A stretch of 21,001 nt of DNA from a virus: positions 1 through 21,001 of the IMG/VR virus record IMGVR_UViG_3300045950_000286; one strand, given 5' to 3'. Position 1 is the stretch's first letter. Each line of letters begins with the position of its first letter. The translations under genes and the position numbers were made by a program. Shown here one piece after another: positions 6,522 through 14,364 of the stretch. The notes beneath the pieces are model-generated. The model searched no databases. It was not told where the DNA came from and saw only the letters and a list, made by a program, of their open reading frames with translations.

Positions 6522-8210
6522 TCAGGATTTCACGGAAAGCATCGGCAGCGAGGCCTCCACGACACTGTCGGTCTGCCAGTAAAGTTCGATCTGGTCGGCG
6601 TCGAGCCGGGTCTTTTCCAGGAAGTAGATGGAGACCCAGTCCTCGGGATTGGCATCGAAGCCGAAGGACTGGTTGATCGTCATCACCTCTTCGTCGCCCG
6701 TGGTCCCGGCGCCGAATCCCTGGATGGTGCGGAAATACCAGCTGCCGTTCTTGTGCAGGAAGGCCGCCTCGGTGCGTCCCGGCATCGGGTTGAAGTACAG
6801 GGCGTAGCCGCGCGAGGCCACGGTCATCACCGTCTGGTTGGAGAGGATTTTCTTGGTCGGGACGATGGAAGCTTCCCAGGTCGGATGCCAGAACGCCGTC
6901 AATCGTCCCGCCCGCGCCGCCAGCCACCCCCGGAAGGCGGCGATCTCGTTGCGATTCTTGAAGAGGTAGTCGAAGGTGCGGCGCTGATAAGGCCGTGCGG
7001 CATGGTCATCCACCGCCGTGATGCCGGTGTCGAAATCGAGCACCTCCGCGAGTCGCCGGTAGTCCGTCTCGACATCGCGCACACGATTTGGCCGCGTCGT
7101 CCACACCGCCATCGAGTTGAAGGTGGTCGCCGATTCCTGCTTCGTGATCGCGGTGGTGCCGGCAATGTCGAACACGAGGCGCGCCGTGGCGATGGTCTCC
7201 GTCACGCGCGCCACCGGCTGGCTGATGTGCAGCCGCGCGGTGCGCGCCGGCGCGATCCACGCACCGGCAGGCCAGGTGTTCAGGAGCGGCGTCTTCAGCG
7301 TCACGGCATTGCTCGCCACCGATAGCACTTCGGCTGCCTCGGTGTTGCGGCTGTCCGATCCGATCACTAGTAGGCCATCTGGCTCATACTCCATGTTCGT
7401 GGTCGCGATCGGGATGACTGTGCTACCAGCCGCGACCTGGGTCGAGAGGATTGCCTTGTCGGGCCAGATGGGCAAGGCATAGACGCGCGACTGCCAGGCC
7501 GACAGCAGAACATCCAGCAGCGTCGCATCGTCGCGCCCGACCAGGATCGAGAACTCCAGCGAGCGGCGCGGCTTGGCGCGCAGGCTGACGCGCTGCTCGG
7601 TGCCGTCGCGGGCCGTCAGCACGTCGGTGGCCCACATCAGGCGCTCAAGCCACCCCTCCGCCCAGTTGGGTTTCAGGCCGAACACCACGACGCGTCGTCC
7701 GGAGATCGACAGCGTCGGCGCTTCGTCCGGGAACTGGAAGGTGAAACTCGCCTCGATCACCGGCGGCCCGTCGAGGCTCACCGAGACGTTGTAGAGGCGC
7801 GACTCCAGCATTCCGTAGGTGGTCGGCGGATTGGCCGGGGCCGCCAGCGTGATGCCGCCGTCGTTCTGGCCGACAACCGCCGACAAGGGCTTGGGGGCGA
7901 AATGGGCGTTCCACACCTCGACCTGTCTTACTTGCGTCGACAGCAGGTTGCCCAGCGCGATCTTGGCCGGCAGCAGATAGACATGGTGATACCAGTCCTG
8001 TTCGAACTGGCGAACCAAATTCCCCGCGAAGGTCGATACGATCTCGGTAACCGGCAGGTTGTTGGTCAGCAGGCCCGCGTTCGGCGGGTTGCCGGCCAGG
8101 GCACTCGGGTACGGCAGCGTCAGGGGCGCTGGCAGGAATTTGTACGCCGCGCCATATAGAGGATTGGCCGGCAGCCCGGAGGGCAGAAGGCTCCCCGCGT
8201 AGGTGGTCAT
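6522..8210 (-). CDS. Probable distal tail protein
   Basis: This protein of 562 residues is beta-rich and shows no enzyme motif. It opens MTTYAGSLLPSGLPANPLYG. The middle holds repeated strand-turn segments (RRVSLRAKPRRSLEFSILV can be read as the start of one; actual text RVSLRAKPRRSLEFSILVG), and the C-terminal third contains DYLFKNRNEIAAFRGWLAAR followed by GRLTAFWHPTW. That last stretch resembles the feature of DUF2460/Dit-type tail proteins in which a helix precedes G-R-x-x-x-F-x-x-P. Its place between the tape measure region and the gpL-like hub is where the distal tail (Dit or gpM-like) ring gene sits in related siphophages. The start overlaps the stop of the upstream gene (ATGA). The structural assignment is moderately sure; the exact equivalent in lambda is not. 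Confidence 0.68.
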   Translation of the reverse strand: MTTYAGSLLPSGLPANPLYGAAYKFLPAPLTLPYPSALAGNPPNAGLLTNNLPVTEIVSTFAGNLVRQFEQDWYHHVYLLPAKIALGNLLSTQVRQVEVWNAHFAPKPLSAVVGQNDGGITLAAPANPPTTYGMLESRLYNVSVSLDGPPVIEASFTFQFPDEAPTLSISGRRVVVFGLKPNWAEGWLERLMWATDVLTARDGTEQRVSLRAKPRRSLEFSILVGRDDATLLDVLLSAWQSRVYALPIWPDKAILSTQVAAGSTVIPIATTNMEYEPDGLLVIGSDSRNTEAAEVLSVASNAVTLKTPLLNTWPAGAWIAPARTARLHISQPVARVTETIATARLVFDIAGTTAITKQESATTFNSMAVWTTRPNRVRDVETDYRRLAEVLDFDTGITAVDDHAARPYQRRTFDYLFKNRNEIAAFRGWLAARAGRLTAFWHPTWEASIVPTKKILSNQTVMTVASRGYALYFNPMPGRTEAAFLHKNGSWYFRTIQGFGAGTTGDEEVMTINQSFGFDANPEDWVSIYFLEKTRLDADQIELYWQTDSVVEASLPMLSVKS

Positions 8211-8965
8211 TTCAGGAAGGCGTAGCCGCCGTAGCTCATGCTGAAGACCATCCAGTCGTTGCCGCCCAGCGTGACGATGTCCTTGTTGACGTACTGCCCG
8301 CTCATCCGCAGCAGGCGCACGCCGGGTGCGTAGCCCATCATCGAGTAGAAGTAGCTGGGCGTCGGGCGGCCGACATCGACCGTGCAGGGATACAGTGGGG
8401 TCACCCCGTTGAAGGCGATGGGCGAGTAGCTGTCGAGCTGCCGCGTCGTCGCGCTGTAGAACGCGCGCACGGCATGCTCACCATAGGTGCCGGATTTCCA
8501 CTTGTTGGTATTGCCGTCGATGTCCGCACGAACGTAGGTGGTGTAGGTGTCCGACAGGAAGGCTCCTCCGGTGAAGGTGCACGTCTTGGTGATCGCGCCG
8601 AAGATGATTGGTGCGTAGGTGGTGCTGGCCGTCTGCACGACGCAGTAGCACCAGCCATCGCCGCCGAAGAGGAAATACTCGGCGCTCCCCGACAGCTGGG
8701 TAAGGGAGTACGAACCCGAGGCGACGGTCTGCGATCCGTAGGCCAGGCCGCTGTTGAAGCTGGTCGAGCCATACCAGGCGATATAGCTCGCGTAGGAATG
8801 TAGATGGACGTACTGGCCACTGGCGGCGTGCGTGAGGTGCAGGCGAAAGTAGCCGGCGTCCGCCTGATACATCAGCTGCGTGTAGCCGCAGACACCGGTG
8901 GCGAAGAGCCGGATCTTGTCGAGAAGATCGTTCGGCGAGGTAGTGATGCCGGATTGAAATGCCAT
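8207..8965 (-). CDS. Phage virion-associated protein of unknown function (paralogue B)
   Basis: This protein of 252 residues is rich in Tyr, Ser, Gly and Thr and appears almost wholly beta-structured, with no recognisable catalytic motif. Its first residues (MAFQSGITTSPNDLLDKIRL) match those of the gene immediately upstream (MAFTSGTATDYLDLLNRLKA) at the MAF-x-SG, DLL and following hydrophobic positions, so the two probably share an N-terminal docking module. The remainder differs. Placement between the tape measure and the distal tail gene suggests a tail-tip or tail-surface component. Its stop overlaps the next start by ATGA. I do not recognise a named family. Confidence 0.6.
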   Translation of the reverse strand: MAFQSGITTSPNDLLDKIRLFATGVCGYTQLMYQADAGYFRLHLTHAASGQYVHLHSYASYIAWYGSTSFNSGLAYGSQTVASGSYSLTQLSGSAEYFLFGGDGWCYCVVQTASTTYAPIIFGAITKTCTFTGGAFLSDTYTTYVRADIDGNTNKWKSGTYGEHAVRAFYSATTRQLDSYSPIAFNGVTPLYPCTVDVGRPTPSYFYSMMGYAPGVRLLRMSGQYVNKDIVTLGGNDWMVFSMSYGGYAFLK

Positions 8966-8987: not shown

Positions 8988-9794
8988 TTACGCCAGCTTC
9001 AGGGCCCAGTAGTCGCTGTAGCCGGTGCGGTACACATCCTGCACCACCAGATGATCGTAGCCGCCCACTTGAATGATGTTCTCGGCAGCGTTGTTGAATC
9101 CCGGCACGGCGAAGCAGCCGTCCATCTCACCCAGACCGTTCAGGATGAAGGGCAGCAGCGGGTAGGAGCCATCCGGGCATTCCCGGGTATTGCTGCCCCA
9201 GCCGCCCGGCCACATCGCCGACACACCGGTCCAGACGCCGGTCGGCGCGTAGTACGCGCCCGAATACCCGGACGACTTGGGCAGGTGGTTGCGGTACTGG
9301 TAGGAATTGCTCCAGCGCGTCGAACTGTTGTAGGTTCCGCCGACCAGCAGCGGGTACGGGTATTGCCCCGGCGTGGCATAGGGCAGGAACAGGCCCAAGT
9401 GCATCATCTCGTAGTAGGTGCCGGTCTTGGCCACCATCACGATGCGGCGGCCGTTGGCCACGATCCAGTAGGGCATGGCGGACGCCATCAGCAGCGCGTA
9501 GAACGTGCCGCTCGGGTTGTACTGGCCGTCGAATGTCTGCGCCGGATTCCAGCCGACGAAGCCGCGCAGTTTCCAGTTGCCGTAGTCCGCGCCGGCCTCG
9601 GTGAGTATCCCCACGTTGATCTGGTCGGTGCCGGCGAGCCCCGGCCCCTGCAGCACCAGTTCGGCGGGCGGTCCGGGCACCCAGCGCAGTACCGACCAGC
9701 GTTCGTTGGCCGGCAGCATGTCCTGGGTGACGAACGCTTTGAGCCGGTTCAGCAGATCGAGATAGTCGGTGGCAGTGCCACTGGTAAAAGCCAT
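8988..9794 (-). CDS. Phage virion-associated protein of unknown function (paralogue A)
   Basis: This protein of 268 residues is aromatic- and Gly-rich with many Tyr/Trp-Pro turns (LGLFLPYATPGQYPYPLLVG, then WPGGWGSN). The N-terminus MAFTSGTATDYLDLLNRLKA is shared in pattern with the downstream gene. The rest looks like a beta-sandwich surface protein, and no enzyme motif is evident. It begins 3 bases after the tape measure stop, in the place where minor tail genes lie in siphophages. It may bind carbohydrate, since aromatic-rich surfaces are common in such proteins, but that is speculation. Confidence 0.62.
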   Translation of the reverse strand: MAFTSGTATDYLDLLNRLKAFVTQDMLPANERWSVLRWVPGPPAELVLQGPGLAGTDQINVGILTEAGADYGNWKLRGFVGWNPAQTFDGQYNPSGTFYALLMASAMPYWIVANGRRIVMVAKTGTYYEMMHLGLFLPYATPGQYPYPLLVGGTYNSSTRWSNSYQYRNHLPKSSGYSGAYYAPTGVWTGVSAMWPGGWGSNTRECPDGSYPLLPFILNGLGEMDGCFAVPGFNNAAENIIQVGGYDHLVVQDVYRTGYSDYWALKLA

Positions 9795-9797
9795 GGC

Positions 9798-12386
9798 TTA
9801 CCTCAGCAATTCACGCACGGCCGAGCCGTTGCGCGAGAGCACGTTGAGAATGGTTTTTTCACCGGCGGCGGAATTCAGATAGTCGGCCGCCATGCCGGGA
9901 TCGATGACGTTGACGATGCGCACCGCTTGCGACGGCGCGGCAGCCTGGGCTTGGGCGACCTCCGGCACGAGGCCACCGTCGGCAAAGGCCAGACGCGGCC
10001 CAGACCAGCGCGGCCCGAACAGACCGCCGTTCAGAGCGTGCAGGAAGTCCACGCCCACCCGGCGCACGGCTTCGGCGCGCAGGACGTACTCTCCGGCGGA
10101 AAGTCGTGCCGGAATTGAATCCGATGTCGAAGTGCCCGGCCCGGTGACGTAGCCTCCCGAAGCAAAGCCGGCCCATTGAAACAAACCCGAGATCAAGCCG
10201 CCCAACCCGCCGCCACCGCCCTTGCTCAACCCACCGAACAACTCTTCGGCGATCTTCTGCGCGGCAATGCGGTTGATGGCTGAAATCACCGAGCGGGCAA
10301 AGTCGGCAAAGGCATCCTTGGCCGATTTCGCGCCCGAACCGATCTGCTCGAACATCGTGGCGAAGGCGTTTTCGACATCGCCGTTAATACGCGTAGCGAC
10401 GTCGTCAGCGGCGGTCTTGAGGCCAGCGACCTCTACCTTGAGGCGGGCCACACGGTTGATGGCTTCCTCCGATCCGGTAGCGACAGCCAGTTCCTGCATT
10501 TTCGGGATCAGGCCTTCCACTTCGGCAACGGTCTGTTGGTGCAGTTCGAGCACGCCGCGCCGCATCTGCGTCTCGGTAAGCATGCCGGCATCTTTCTGCA
10601 CCTGCAGTTCCCGTTCGCGGATGGCCATGCGTTCGGTGACGATCTGGTACTGGCGTTCGAGTTTGCCGAGTTCGGCCAGGTCGGCTTCGACGTTGATCAG
10701 GCGACCGACATCGGCCGCGCCGGTAGTGTCACCCATGCGCTGCAGCTTCTCGATGAGTGGCTGGTATTCGCGCTCCAGCCGTGCCCGGGTCACGTCGCCA
10801 CCCGCACCGCCCCGGATCTCGGCCAAGCGGTCACGCACACGGGCGAGTTCGTCGGCCAGTTCCTTTTCAGCCTTGGCGGCGGCGTGGGCATTGACGACCT
10901 CGATTTCGCCGCGCTTCATGTTGAGCACGGTGATTTCGCCTTCGAGTTTCTTGACCTCGGACTTTGCGCGCAGACGCTGCGCCTCGTCCTTGCCATTGAC
11001 CGCCACTGCCGATTGGGCAGTCAGTTCCTGCTGTTTGGCGGCCAGTTCCTGATCGATGGCCTGCTGTTCGATCTGCGTCTTGCGGGCGTAGTAATCGCGG
11101 ATCGAGACCAGACGATCATCGAGCGCGCGATCCAGTGCGGATTTCTGCAGATCGAGTCCTTCCTTGACGGCTTTGAACTCGGCCTCGGCCTGCGCCTTGA
11201 CCACGGCCAATTGCGCGCCGGTCGTATCCTTCTCGGCACCACCTGCGGACTTCTTCTCACACTTGCCATTGACCCATTGACCTCCCGAAACCACGCAGGC
11301 GATGCGCTGCATGTCCTCGGTGGGCTTGCCGGTCGGGGTCTTTTCCTCGGGGCGCTTCGGACTGGTCAGTGCGTCCAGCCGTTGCTTCGCTGCCGCCAGT
11401 TCCTGCTCCCATTGCGTCAGGTTCTTCCTCAGCGTGGCCATCGCCGCATCGTTGAACTTGACGTCGAAGGGCATAAACGGCACCGGAGCCTTGCCGGTAT
11501 CGACCTTCTTGCGGGTCGAGTCGACCAGTTCCTGAATCCGTGCAACCTCGTCGCGGGCGCGCTTGATCTCGGTGCCGTTGAAAATCAGGTTGCCAACACC
11601 GCCCAGGCCGACCCACAACGCCTTCAGCGTTCCGGCCTCGTTGGCCGCCTCGCGCATGGCGTCGGTGATATTGGTCAGTTCCGGCAGGAAGTCGCGGGCC
11701 AGAGCAATGCCGAGCGAGGAACTTGATGCCTTGAGCGCCGTGAGATTATCGTTGAACGCCTCGGCGGAACGCGCCGTTTCTGTAGTGAGCTTCAGGCCAA
11801 GTCGTTCGGCCTCGGCGGTCAGTTGATTGATCCCGGCAGCCCCCTGATTGAGGAAAGGGATCATGTCCATGCCGCTCTTGCCGAATAGCTTTACGGCGAG
11901 CGCCGTCTTGACCGCGCCATCCTCCAGGTTGGCGAAGACATCGGCCACCTGCAGCAGCACGGCTTCGGTGGACTTCATGCTGCCGTCGGCGTTCTTGACG
12001 GAGACACCTAATGCCTCGAACACCTGAGCCCCGTCGCCAATCCCGGTATTGGCCTCGGCGATGTTCTGTGACAGCCCCTTGATGCCCTTCTGCAAGGTCT
12101 CCAGACTGACATCCGACAGTTGCGCGGCGAAGCGCAGGGTCGACAGCGCCTCGACCGAAATGCCGATCTTTTGCGAGAGCTTGTTCAGATGATCCGCCGC
12201 GTCGATGGCGCTCTTGATCATCGTGGCAAACCCAGCCACCGAGAGCGAGACGCCGAGGCCGGCGAGCAGCCCCTTCACGCGATTCGACTCATCACCGAGC
12301 TTGGCCAGGTTGCCGCGAATCGAGTCGAAGGCCGAGCGGGTCTGATCGATGGCGGTAATCAGCAGTTGGGCACGATCCTGGGTCAC
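9798..12386 (-). CDS. Tail tape measure protein
   Basis: This protein of 862 residues fixes tail length and, in the family, helps DNA delivery. The N-terminal part contains the classic tape measure opening (LLITAIDQTRSAF, AADHLNKLSQKIGISVEAL, LFGKSGMDMIPFLNQGA). A long charged coiled-coil region follows at about residues 380-700 (ELTAQSAVAV and ELERQYQIVTERM-type stretches). Near the C-terminus is a Gly-rich patch and the recurrent signature ASGGYVTGPGTSTSDSIPAR, then LSAGEYVLRAEAV. A hydrophobic stretch lies at about 38-56. An unusual Cys loop (C364 and C376, CVVSGGQWVNGKC) sits in the linker before the coiled coil. The start is GTG at 12386. A four-codon reading frame (MNPS, 12397-12383) ends in a GTGA overlap with it and could couple translation, since no strong ribosome site precedes the GTG. 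The length implies a medium-long flexible tail. Confidence 0.93.
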   Translation of the reverse strand: MTQDRAQLLITAIDQTRSAFDSIRGNLAKLGDESNRVKGLLAGLGVSLSVAGFATMIKSAIDAADHLNKLSQKIGISVEALSTLRFAAQLSDVSLETLQKGIKGLSQNIAEANTGIGDGAQVFEALGVSVKNADGSMKSTEAVLLQVADVFANLEDGAVKTALAVKLFGKSGMDMIPFLNQGAAGINQLTAEAERLGLKLTTETARSAEAFNDNLTALKASSSSLGIALARDFLPELTNITDAMREAANEAGTLKALWVGLGGVGNLIFNGTEIKRARDEVARIQELVDSTRKKVDTGKAPVPFMPFDVKFNDAAMATLRKNLTQWEQELAAAKQRLDALTSPKRPEEKTPTGKPTEDMQRIACVVSGGQWVNGKCEKKSAGGAEKDTTGAQLAVVKAQAEAEFKAVKEGLDLQKSALDRALDDRLVSIRDYYARKTQIEQQAIDQELAAKQQELTAQSAVAVNGKDEAQRLRAKSEVKKLEGEITVLNMKRGEIEVVNAHAAAKAEKELADELARVRDRLAEIRGGAGGDVTRARLEREYQPLIEKLQRMGDTTGAADVGRLINVEADLAELGKLERQYQIVTERMAIRERELQVQKDAGMLTETQMRRGVLELHQQTVAEVEGLIPKMQELAVATGSEEAINRVARLKVEVAGLKTAADDVATRINGDVENAFATMFEQIGSGAKSAKDAFADFARSVISAINRIAAQKIAEELFGGLSKGGGGGLGGLISGLFQWAGFASGGYVTGPGTSTSDSIPARLSAGEYVLRAEAVRRVGVDFLHALNGGLFGPRWSGPRLAFADGGLVPEVAQAQAAAPSQAVRIVNVIDPGMAADYLNSAAGEKTILNVLSRNGSAVRELLR

Positions 12387-12402: not shown

Positions 12403-13053
12403 TCAAATCTTGTTCAGTTGCTTCTCGACGGCGCGGGCCAGGACGGACAACTGACCCCGCACCGCACCTTCCAGATCGAAGCGGCGTTTCAGGGTGACGT
12501 TCGGCACCAACACGGCGATGGGAATCTCCGTGCCGCGCTTGATGGATTTCGCACCGGTGCGACTCCGCTCGGCGCGCTTGAAGCGGCGCAATTCGGCGGC
12601 GTTCTCCTTGATCGCTTCCGCCATCAGGATGACCTTGCCGTTCTTCTGGATGAAGAAAGCATTGCCGCTGCGCATCAGGCCATCGATCACGCGCCGGAAG
12701 GCCTTGCGCCCCATGCGCTGGTGCTCGGGCAGCAGCGGAATCAGCATCCGGCCCGACACGGTGCCACCCCGAACATGGATGCCAAGCCACGGTATCCGCG
12801 ACCCAATGAGCAGCGCCGGCAGCTTGTCCGGGTTGCGATCAAAGACCTTGGCCCGCAGCGATCTCACGAACGCCGCCTTCCTGACCGTGAAATCGGCGTT
12901 CATCCTGCTGCGCACGGCATCGGCCATGGGCTTGCCGCCCGATTGCATTCCGGCCGCGACCGCCTTGTGGATGGACGCCTGCTTCTGCCGAGCCCAGGCG
13001 TCGAGCTTGGACTTATCCAGCAGGCCAGTCGCGGTCAGGGAGAGCTTTAGCAC
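12403..13053 (-). CDS. Minor tail protein, DUF6441-like
   Basis: This protein of 216 residues lies between the tail assembly chaperone and the tape measure, the place of DUF6441 proteins in many siphophages. It opens as a basic helical region (GLLDKSKLDAWARQKQASIH, then MADAVRSRMNADF). Next comes a strand-rich core (LPALLIGSRIPWLGIHVRGG, GRMLIPLLP, NAFFIQKNGKVILMA), and IPIAVLVPNVTLKRRFDLE lies near the end. The chosen start is GTG at 13053, with AAGG about 6 bases upstream. It overlaps the stop of the frameshifted chaperone product by 7 bases. The reading frame stays open upstream to 13254, but that part overlaps the chaperone gene and has no domain character. The family call rests on position and motif order. 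Confidence 0.72.
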   Translation of the reverse strand: MLKLSLTATGLLDKSKLDAWARQKQASIHKAVAAGMQSGGKPMADAVRSRMNADFTVRKAAFVRSLRAKVFDRNPDKLPALLIGSRIPWLGIHVRGGTVSGRMLIPLLPEHQRMGRKAFRRVIDGLMRSGNAFFIQKNGKVILMAEAIKENAAELRRFKRAERSRTGAKSIKRGTEIPIAVLVPNVTLKRRFDLEGAVRGQLSVLARAVEKQLNKI

Positions 13054-13630
13054 GACAGCGCCTTCATCATTCGGCGCAGCGCCTCGCTGCTCCCCTGACT
13101 GCCGGTCGCGGTTATCGACAGGAGATTCGCCAGTTGCCGGGACTCCTGCCGGTCGATAGCTGCGAGGAATGCGTCGATTTGCGCCAGCGTGTAGCCGAGA
13201 ATATCGGCGTAGGCGTGCCCTGCGCCGATCAGCCGTTGGAGGGCGTCGCTCCACGCGTCGGGTTTTCCAGTAGCTGACCGATCCGCGCTGCTGCCTGTGT
13301 CACGCTCGGCAACAGGCGCCGGATAAAAAAATCGGCATTCACCCCGAACACCGCTTCTGCCAGGCGCACGGCTTCGTCGAGATCGAGCCCGGCCACCCAT
13401 TCGACCGGGCGGCGCGTGGCAACAGCGATCGCAGCGATCACGGCTTCGCCGTGTTCGGCCAGCAGTGCCAGCCAGTCGGGCGATGCCGACAGACTGGCGG
13501 CGATGGGTTGCATCGCCCGGGCGAACGCCGGCACCTCGCCCACCTTGAGCGGCGTGAGATCGATCTTCTCGCCCGATATCTCGACGAACACCGGCACCGG
13601 CGGCAGTGCCGCGAACATCTCGTTGCCCAT
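13047..13630 (-). CDS. Tail assembly chaperone, -1 frameshift fusion (gpGT-like)
   Basis: This is the predicted product of a programmed -1 ribosomal frameshift at the seven-T site 13331-13325. The first 102 residues are those of the short chaperone. After the two Phe codons (residues 101-102) translation slips back one base and continues as YPAPVAERDTGSSADRSATG, then KPDAWSDALQRLIGAGHAYA, ending RRMMKALSC at the stop 13047. The total is 194 residues against 133 for the unshifted form. In lambda and most siphophages the G and GT pair binds the tape measure and the tube subunit to start tail polymerisation. The -1 frame lacks its own credible start and ribosome site, overlaps the end of the short gene, and is followed directly by the next tail gene. 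All of this supports the fusion. Confidence 0.85.
13229..13630 (-). CDS. Tail assembly chaperone, short form (gpG-like)
   Basis: This protein of 133 residues lies between the tail tube gene and the minor tail gene. It opens MGNEMFAALPPVPVFVEISG and has a helical core (PDWLALLAEHGEAVIAAIAV, LDLDEAVRLAEAVFGVNADF). The start is taken as ATG at 13630 because it forms the TGATG junction used by several neighbours. A GTG one codon upstream is also possible. In this family the protein coats the tape measure and is absent from the mature tail. The unshifted reading ends at 13229; part of the ribosomes should shift at the T7 run to give the longer form listed separately. Sequence is poorly conserved in this family, so identification rests on position, size and the frameshift signal. 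Confidence 0.85.
   Translation of the reverse strand: MGNEMFAALPPVPVFVEISGEKIDLTPLKVGEVPAFARAMQPIAASLSASPDWLALLAEHGEAVIAAIAVATRRPVEWVAGLDLDEAVRLAEAVFGVNADFFIRRLLPSVTQAAARIGQLLENPTRGATPSNG
13281..13324 (-). promoter_or_regulatory. Frameshift-stimulating hairpin
   Basis: Directly 3' of the slippery run, on the minus strand, ATCCG, CGC and TGTTGCC pair with GGCAGCA, GCG and CGGAT. This gives 15 base pairs with two single-base bulges (G and C), one G-U pair and a 12-base loop. If the lowest 5 bp and the bulged G are melted by the ribosome, the remaining stem begins 6 bases after the T run, which is the usual spacing for a stimulator. Confidence 0.75.
13325..13331 (-). promoter_or_regulatory. Slippery heptamer for -1 frameshift (T TTT TTT)
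   Basis: On the minus strand the chaperone frame reads GAT TTT TTT ATC, giving a seven-T heptamer in the X-XXY-YYZ register. A -1 slip preserves Phe pairing in both ribosomal sites and enters the reading frame that ends at 13047. Confidence 0.88.
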
Positions 13631-14364
13631 CACAGCAGCACGATCCGGCCGAATTGTCCGAGGCTGCCGCTCGCCGACTTGGTGAGATCGGCCAGCACCT
13701 GGCCCGACAGTTCGAACTTCATCAGGTCGTTACCGATCACCGAGAGTTCCTTCGTTGGGTTGATCGCGACGCGGTAGAGATCGATGACGACCTCCTTGTT
13801 GCTGTCGGCGGTATTCAGCCCCTCGAACCGCACCCAACGCTCCGGTAGTGGCTGGGTGAACATCGCCGTGACGTTGGCCGTGCCGTAGCTGTAGCTGGCC
13901 GTGATCGCCCCGGTGACGCCCGTGAGGTCGGTGAACTGGATGGAGCCGTGCTTGGCATTGACGGTGTATTTGGTATTGGCGACCGTGGTCGCGCCGGCCT
14001 TGATGACCACGTTGGAAACGTTCTGCTTACCCAGCAGGTAGAGCTTGCCGAGCTCGGCCGTCGCGATGACGGGCTCGTCGGTCACGGTGCCGCTGGTGAC
14101 CGTCGCCGTCGAGCCATAGAGAGCCAACTCGAGATTGGTCTGGATCAGTTCTTCCAGCGTGCAGGCGAACTCGCCCTTCTTGGTTTTGATGAGCTGCAGG
14201 TCGGTCAGACGCTGGCCGGATTGGGACTCCTGGTGTTCCAGGGTTTCCACCGAGAGCGACACCTTGAGGTCGGGCACGTTGCCGACGAAGGTAAGCCCCT
14301 GCGGATTGCCATTGCTGTCACGCGCGCCGATGAAGACGCGGCCTTGTCCTGAGAAGTAGGCCAT
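13630..14364 (-). CDS. Major tail protein (tail tube subunit)
   Basis: This protein of 244 residues forms the tail tube. It opens MAYFSGQGRVFIGARDSNGN. It then has a beta-rich body typical of siphophage tube proteins, with VGNVPDLKVSLSVETLEHQE, KKGEFACTLEELIQTNLELA and WVRFEGLNTADSNKEVVIDL, and finally PTKELSVIGNDLMKFELSGQ. A central insert (about residues 95-165, strand-rich, with TKYTVNAKHGSIQFTDL) may be a domain facing outward. The ribosome site GGAG is formed by the last codons of the preceding gene (AAG GAG TAA), 9 bases from the ATG. The stop makes a TGATG junction with the chaperone gene, consistent with coordinated tube and chaperone synthesis. Confidence 0.87.
   Translation of the reverse strand: MAYFSGQGRVFIGARDSNGNPQGLTFVGNVPDLKVSLSVETLEHQESQSGQRLTDLQLIKTKKGEFACTLEELIQTNLELALYGSTATVTSGTVTDEPVIATAELGKLYLLGKQNVSNVVIKAGATTVANTKYTVNAKHGSIQFTDLTGVTGAITASYSYGTANVTAMFTQPLPERWVRFEGLNTADSNKEVVIDLYRVAINPTKELSVIGNDLMKFELSGQVLADLTKSASGSLGQFGRIVLL

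Follow-up and report, generated by a model that had tools for sequence, protein, structure and literature searches.

The tail assembly chaperone gene of the siphophage studied here very probably carries a programmed -1 ribosomal frameshift of the type known from G/GT of lambda, as judged by comparison of its sequence with that of relatives. A frameshift of this type at a run of seven T's had been proposed in a preliminary description of the DNA, and it is strongly supported by the heptamer, the -1 frame, the chaperone homology and the gene order. The window, that is the whole stretch of 21,001 nucleotides analysed, is a 21-kb IMG/VR virus record whose minus strand carries a lambda-type late module with portal (PF05136), capsid protein E (PF03864), tail terminator, major tail protein and then tail genes; from the tail assembly chaperone on, it continues with a DUF6441 protein, the tape measure and tail tip genes. 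The following features are referred to, listed in the direction of the minus strand:

13630 to 14364, minus strand: major tail protein, upstream neighbour of G (phrog_807, E 2.4e-80)
13229 to 13633, minus strand: 0-frame gene G, tail assembly chaperone (open reading frame, phrog_1442, AlphaFold model match)
13340 to 13345, minus strand: Shine-Dalgarno-like (SD-like) element GGGGTG, proposed 5' stimulator (anti-SD pairing, synonymous recoding test)
13325 to 13331, minus strand: slippery heptamer T_TTT_TTT, 0 frame GAT TTT TTT (sequence, T_TTT_TTY in all distinct relatives)
13281 to 13324, minus strand: hairpin of 15 bp in 5+3+7 with two single-base bulges and zero spacer (folding; lineage-restricted, possible secondary stimulator)
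13047 to 13325, minus strand: -1 frame, T domain (-1 frame in relatives, phrog_13355 and phrog_14432, third-position bias past the G stop)
12403 to 13053, minus strand: DUF6441 protein, between GT and tape measure (PF20039, E 7e-87)
9798 to 12386, minus strand: tape measure protein (phrog tape-measure families)

The G protein has 134 residues when read from GTG 13633, with ATG 13630 as the other possible start, and ends at the stop 13231-13229. It matched the tail assembly chaperone family phrog_1442 with an E value of 1.2e-32. In a search of a viral structure library, its AlphaFold model resembled phage tail assembly chaperones and 'pre-tape measure frameshift protein G', the best fold match being that of phage DLP5 (E 2e-5). 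No significant sequence or fold match for G was obtained in the PDB, no match to it among the INPHARED phage records, and nothing useful in NCBIfam. The product of G is a homologue of tail assembly chaperones. The order of genes is also that of the G/GT frameshift class, namely major tail protein, G/GT, one DUF6441 gene and tape measure. The DUF6441 gene adjoins GT ahead of the tape measure in 153 of the 157 loci with sufficient sequence, and a role in tail completion may be guessed for it. The -1 frame had been said to abut the next tail gene; the overlap was indeed found (GTG 13053), and this gene encodes the DUF6441 protein and not the tape measure, which follows one gene later.

Some further observations were made in the window. 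The adjacent tail-region proteins encoded at 8207-8965 and 8988-9794 have similar starts (MAFQSG.. and MAFTSG..) and look like diverged tandem paralogs. The ORF at 1360-2124, which adjoins a lysozyme-like ORF at 905-1375, contains by eye an HNH-endonuclease-like region (CHRCDNSGCVNPQHL) and is a possible homing endonuclease. A search of 13000-13700 against Rfam gave no RNA family above threshold; a weak match to Proteo-phage-1 RNA, antisense to the chaperone gene at 13466-13536 (plus strand), scored 23.3 bits where 42 are required and was absent from eight relatives.

Relatives were sought in viral contigs and prokaryote genomes using the G protein, an alignment of G and an alignment of the T domain as queries. 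This yielded 256 loci with both G and T domains, many of them repeat copies of the same contig. Removal of duplicates left 166 distinct loci reaching down to about 40% protein identity, from which 46 representatives were taken as clusters at 85% DNA identity. Sequence comparison among these loci is what established the heptamer, selection on the -1 frame and the SD-like element.

The seven T's reported in the chaperone frame were confirmed at 13331-13325, where G reads GAT TTT TTT ATC. A heptamer was found at the same codon in all 166 distinct loci (72 with T_TTT_TTT, 94 with T_TTT_TTC), and it is also kept in loci detected solely via the T domain. Among the 46 representatives, GAT is present in 45 (one has AAT) and the first TTT in every one; both codons are synonymously invariant, where codon usage predicts a pairwise synonymous identity of about 0.55. 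The last heptamer base, third in the second Phe codon, is free to vary (31 T, 15 C), and at least five switches between the T7 and T6C states were counted on the protein tree. At the level of sequence, a fixed X_XXY_YY with a free Z is the signature expected of tandem tRNA slippage. In the other main genes of the window phage, TTT accounts for 24 of 140 Phe codons and no further in-frame T_TTT_TT occurs. Chance is excluded as the origin of the run, because all distinct relatives keep T_TTT_TTY although TTT is the less used Phe codon here. Another in-frame candidate, AAACCCG at the 3' end of G, was dismissed, as it is present in only 3 of 166 loci.

As described before, the -1 frame runs across the heptamer without interruption down to 13047, its stop 13049-13047 overlapping the GTG of the DUF6441 gene. 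The predicted G-T fusion has about 195 residues, of which 103 codons lie before and 92 after the slip. The conservation of this frame in relatives, anticipated in the preliminary description together with that of the heptamer, was borne out, with 255 of 256 loci carrying the T domain in frame -1 relative to G. When the window was compared with 15 relatives of equal length, substitutions past the G stop fell on positions 1, 2 and 3 of the -1 frame in numbers of 113, 97 and 297, so that 297 of 507 were at the third position. By this measure the -1 frame beyond the G stop appears clearly selected as protein. Within the overlap the corresponding numbers were 106, 52 and 100, as would be expected for double coding. 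Two families of 'unknown function', phrog_13355 and phrog_14432, match the -1-frame T domain of the window (13047-13325) and seem to be products of missed frameshifts.

The sole locus with G and T in one frame is a prophage of Thermomonas sp. S9 (L082:5297-5303). Its site reads GAT TTT TTT CGT and holds one extra T compared with its T6C relatives, which reflects either a homopolymer error of long-read assembly or a real constitutive fusion. The direct fusion of both frames in this prophage speaks against a programmed frameshift.

An SD-like element, which was missed in the preliminary description and is a new detail, was found 8 nt upstream of the heptamer. It reads GGGGTG in the window and GAGGTG in most relatives, and nowhere else in the gene is the anti-SD match as strong, the mean being -8.3 kcal/mol at this site and -1.3 over the whole gene. 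In a test by synonymous recoding with per-locus codon usage, the three windows over this site were the most extreme in the gene (z -5.8 to -6.1) and the next most extreme ones were near -2.9 and -2.4, the relatives being linked by phylogeny so that z-scores overstate independence. Codon choice at the site is strongly restricted. Glu is encoded by GAG in 129 of 135 loci; where Gly stands in its place, GGG (26) or GGA (2) is used and never GGC, the usual Gly codon in the other main genes of the window phage (222 of 372). GRGG is thereby kept, with at least seven changes of the residue on the tree. The most distant members (L255-L257) keep the heptamer, and the SD-like site is absent from them. 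No -1-frame start codon lies at initiation distance after the element, which therefore does not act as a hidden ribosome-binding site for T. On this comparative evidence the SD-like element is the better-supported candidate stimulator than the downstream hairpin, and we lean towards a frameshift driven here by pairing of 16S rRNA to GRGGTG upstream of the poly-U heptamer, without conserved downstream structure. The searchable open literature yielded no account of an SD-like stimulator acting in a tail chaperone gene.

Two ways of entering the -1 frame other than ribosomal frameshifting were weighed. With an internal start, T would be a separate gene in an ordinary gene overlap, and the window does contain an in-frame ATG (13398-13400) 69 nt upstream of the heptamer. 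This ATG is however not conserved. Between the upstream stop of the -1 ORF and the heptamer, no ATG, GTG or TTG occurs in 66 of 166 loci, 46 of these are also without a start in the 40 codons after the heptamer, and in several loci the -1 ORF opens just 0-12 nt ahead of the heptamer. No credible conserved internal start for the second frame was found in the 166 loci, so that neither of the two checks named in the preliminary description, conservation and an independent start, speaks against the shift. Independent initiation of T is unlikely from this distribution of start codons, and a separate gene, which would leave the synonymous invariance of GAT TTT unexplained, is considered extremely improbable. 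Stuttering of RNA polymerase on the T run could likewise give transcripts with an additional U, from which ordinary translation would enter the -1 frame. Such transcriptional slippage could be envisaged for the window and the 72 distinct loci with seven T's, but the other 94 have six T's followed by C, which is short for bacterial slippage. The documented bacterial examples are runs of 9 A or T (PMC5009743), a length that is not reached here, and the run is lengthened in no relative but the Thermomonas prophage. Moreover, the upstream SD-like element is sensible only for a ribosomal event, and transcriptional slippage is regarded as very unlikely.

The third alternative concerns the stimulator rather than the shift itself. 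In the preliminary description, a 44-base hairpin of 15 bp with two bulges was thought to set the ratio of G to GT. The structure was found at 13324-13281, but it begins on the first base after the heptamer and not on the last slippery base. Folded alone, these exact 44 nt are stable (-22 kcal/mol, z -2.65), and the apical 7 bp are paired in 82 of 84 cells across 12 near relatives. Because of the zero spacer, the lower 5 bp would presumably be melted already with the heptamer in the P and A sites, and only the upper stem could act; the remainder would then lie 6-10 nt from the heptamer, close to the 6 nt of dnaX (PMC11162774). Against this stand the behaviour of the hairpin in context and its fate in relatives. 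When 13260-13345 was folded, as had been suggested, the hairpin was present and its stability with surroundings was unremarkable (z -0.62), as was that of 13229-13325 (z -1.29). The middle 3 bp and lower 5 bp are disrupted in close relatives, the whole stem is lost in other T7 lineages, and the compensatory changes that had been looked for amounted to zero two-sided ones at any pair. Across the 46 representatives, folding just 3' of the heptamer was no better than in an upstream control (mean z -0.90 against -1.02). A crude stacking-energy scan for H-type pseudoknots in these representatives, the window not being among them, picked up no signal, with a mean z of -0.69 and 2% of values under -2. 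Conservation of the hairpin in the near clade can come from that of the two overlapping proteins, from which it is inseparable in the sequences. Thus the hairpin was rejected as a conserved, family-wide stimulator and its setting of the ratio is unsupported; that it is the main stimulator is held to be rather unlikely, and the apical stem is a plausible lineage-restricted helper.

We infer the occurrence and rate of slippage, the role of each stimulator and the functions of the proteins as follows. The majority of ribosomes would translate G through to its stop at 13229. In a minority, the two tRNA-Phe that occupy the P and A sites and read UUU UUU would re-pair one base upstream. In E. coli, slipping is weaker at U_UUU_UUU than at A_AAA_AAG (PMC5009743), and the yield of the fusion may therefore be low. 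Slipped ribosomes would go on in the -1 frame to 13047 and produce the G-T fusion. By analogy with lambda, G may form a coat on the tape measure, and the fusion may recruit the tail tube protein through its T part. Slippage is probably aided mainly by GRGGTG pairing with 16S rRNA, and the downstream hairpin would contribute in some lineages only.

Frameshifts conserved in the tail assembly chaperone genes of dsDNA phages were reportedly described by Xu, Hendrix and Duda in 2004. The G/GT system of lambda resembles that of the window in its site between major tail protein and tape measure, in a short G and a G-T fusion, in the -1 direction and in the slip near the 3' end of G. The lambda heptamer is G_GGA_AAG, for which the earlier wording of a 'slippery G-run' was imprecise, and that of the window family is U_UUU_UUU or U_UUU_UUC. 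The window family further differs by the SD-like element upstream of the heptamer, and the window by the DUF6441 gene between GT and tape measure, whereas in lambda the tape measure follows GT with no gene in between.

Frameshifting in tail chaperone genes is widespread among phages (PMC5009743), and 6-7% shifting was measured for two HK97-like chaperone cassettes (PMC3711429). A T TTT TTC slip site has been predicted in the tail assembly gene of the Pseudomonas Mu-like siphophages D3112/PaMx73 (Casadabanvirus) (PMC4378225). These share with the window the heptamer class, the FF motif (ANQGFFVRR, VNADFFIRR in the window) and the placement of T in the -1 frame; their upstream match to the anti-SD is weaker (-6.0 kcal/mol, -9.3 in the window), and DUF6441 is absent between GT and tape measure. 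The Stenotrophomonas phages DLP5 (Delepquintavirus) and Suso have T_TTT_TTT or T_TTT_TTC at the corresponding FF and T in the -1 frame, but are without the SD-like element (-2.4 and -2.7 kcal/mol). The annotation of Suso gives the slippery site and a joined product. In DLP5 (1052-1731), GenBank has the chaperone and a short hypothetical protein apart, and T_TTT_TTT with an open -1 frame represents an unannotated frameshift.

In dnaX of E. coli, the SD-like AGGGAG lies 10 nt upstream of A_AAA_AAG (PMC11162774), an arrangement with a homopolymeric heptamer similar to that at 8 nt in the window. dnaX differs from the window by its A-run with tRNA-Lys, an efficiency of about 50%, a downstream hairpin at 6 nt and a shift yielding the shorter product. 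Of the features of the dnaX type, the SD-like sequence some 10 nt upstream was found here, kept more strictly than the encoded residues require (GRGGTG at 8 nt, z about -6); a conserved downstream stem-loop was not.

The cassette of the window is ordinary in kind and belongs to a known type of phage frameshift. With it, the G/GT frameshift gains a wide range of phages and prophages, most of them from proteobacterial genomes, and the 'unknown function' families phrog_13355 and phrog_14432 are explained as matches to the -1-frame T domain. Gene callers that are blind to frameshifts will miss the fusion across all these genomes. From the comparison, selection beside the slip site appears to keep the upstream SD-like element and not the obvious hairpin, so that the SD-like motif is, as far as sequences tell, the best-conserved accessory signal.
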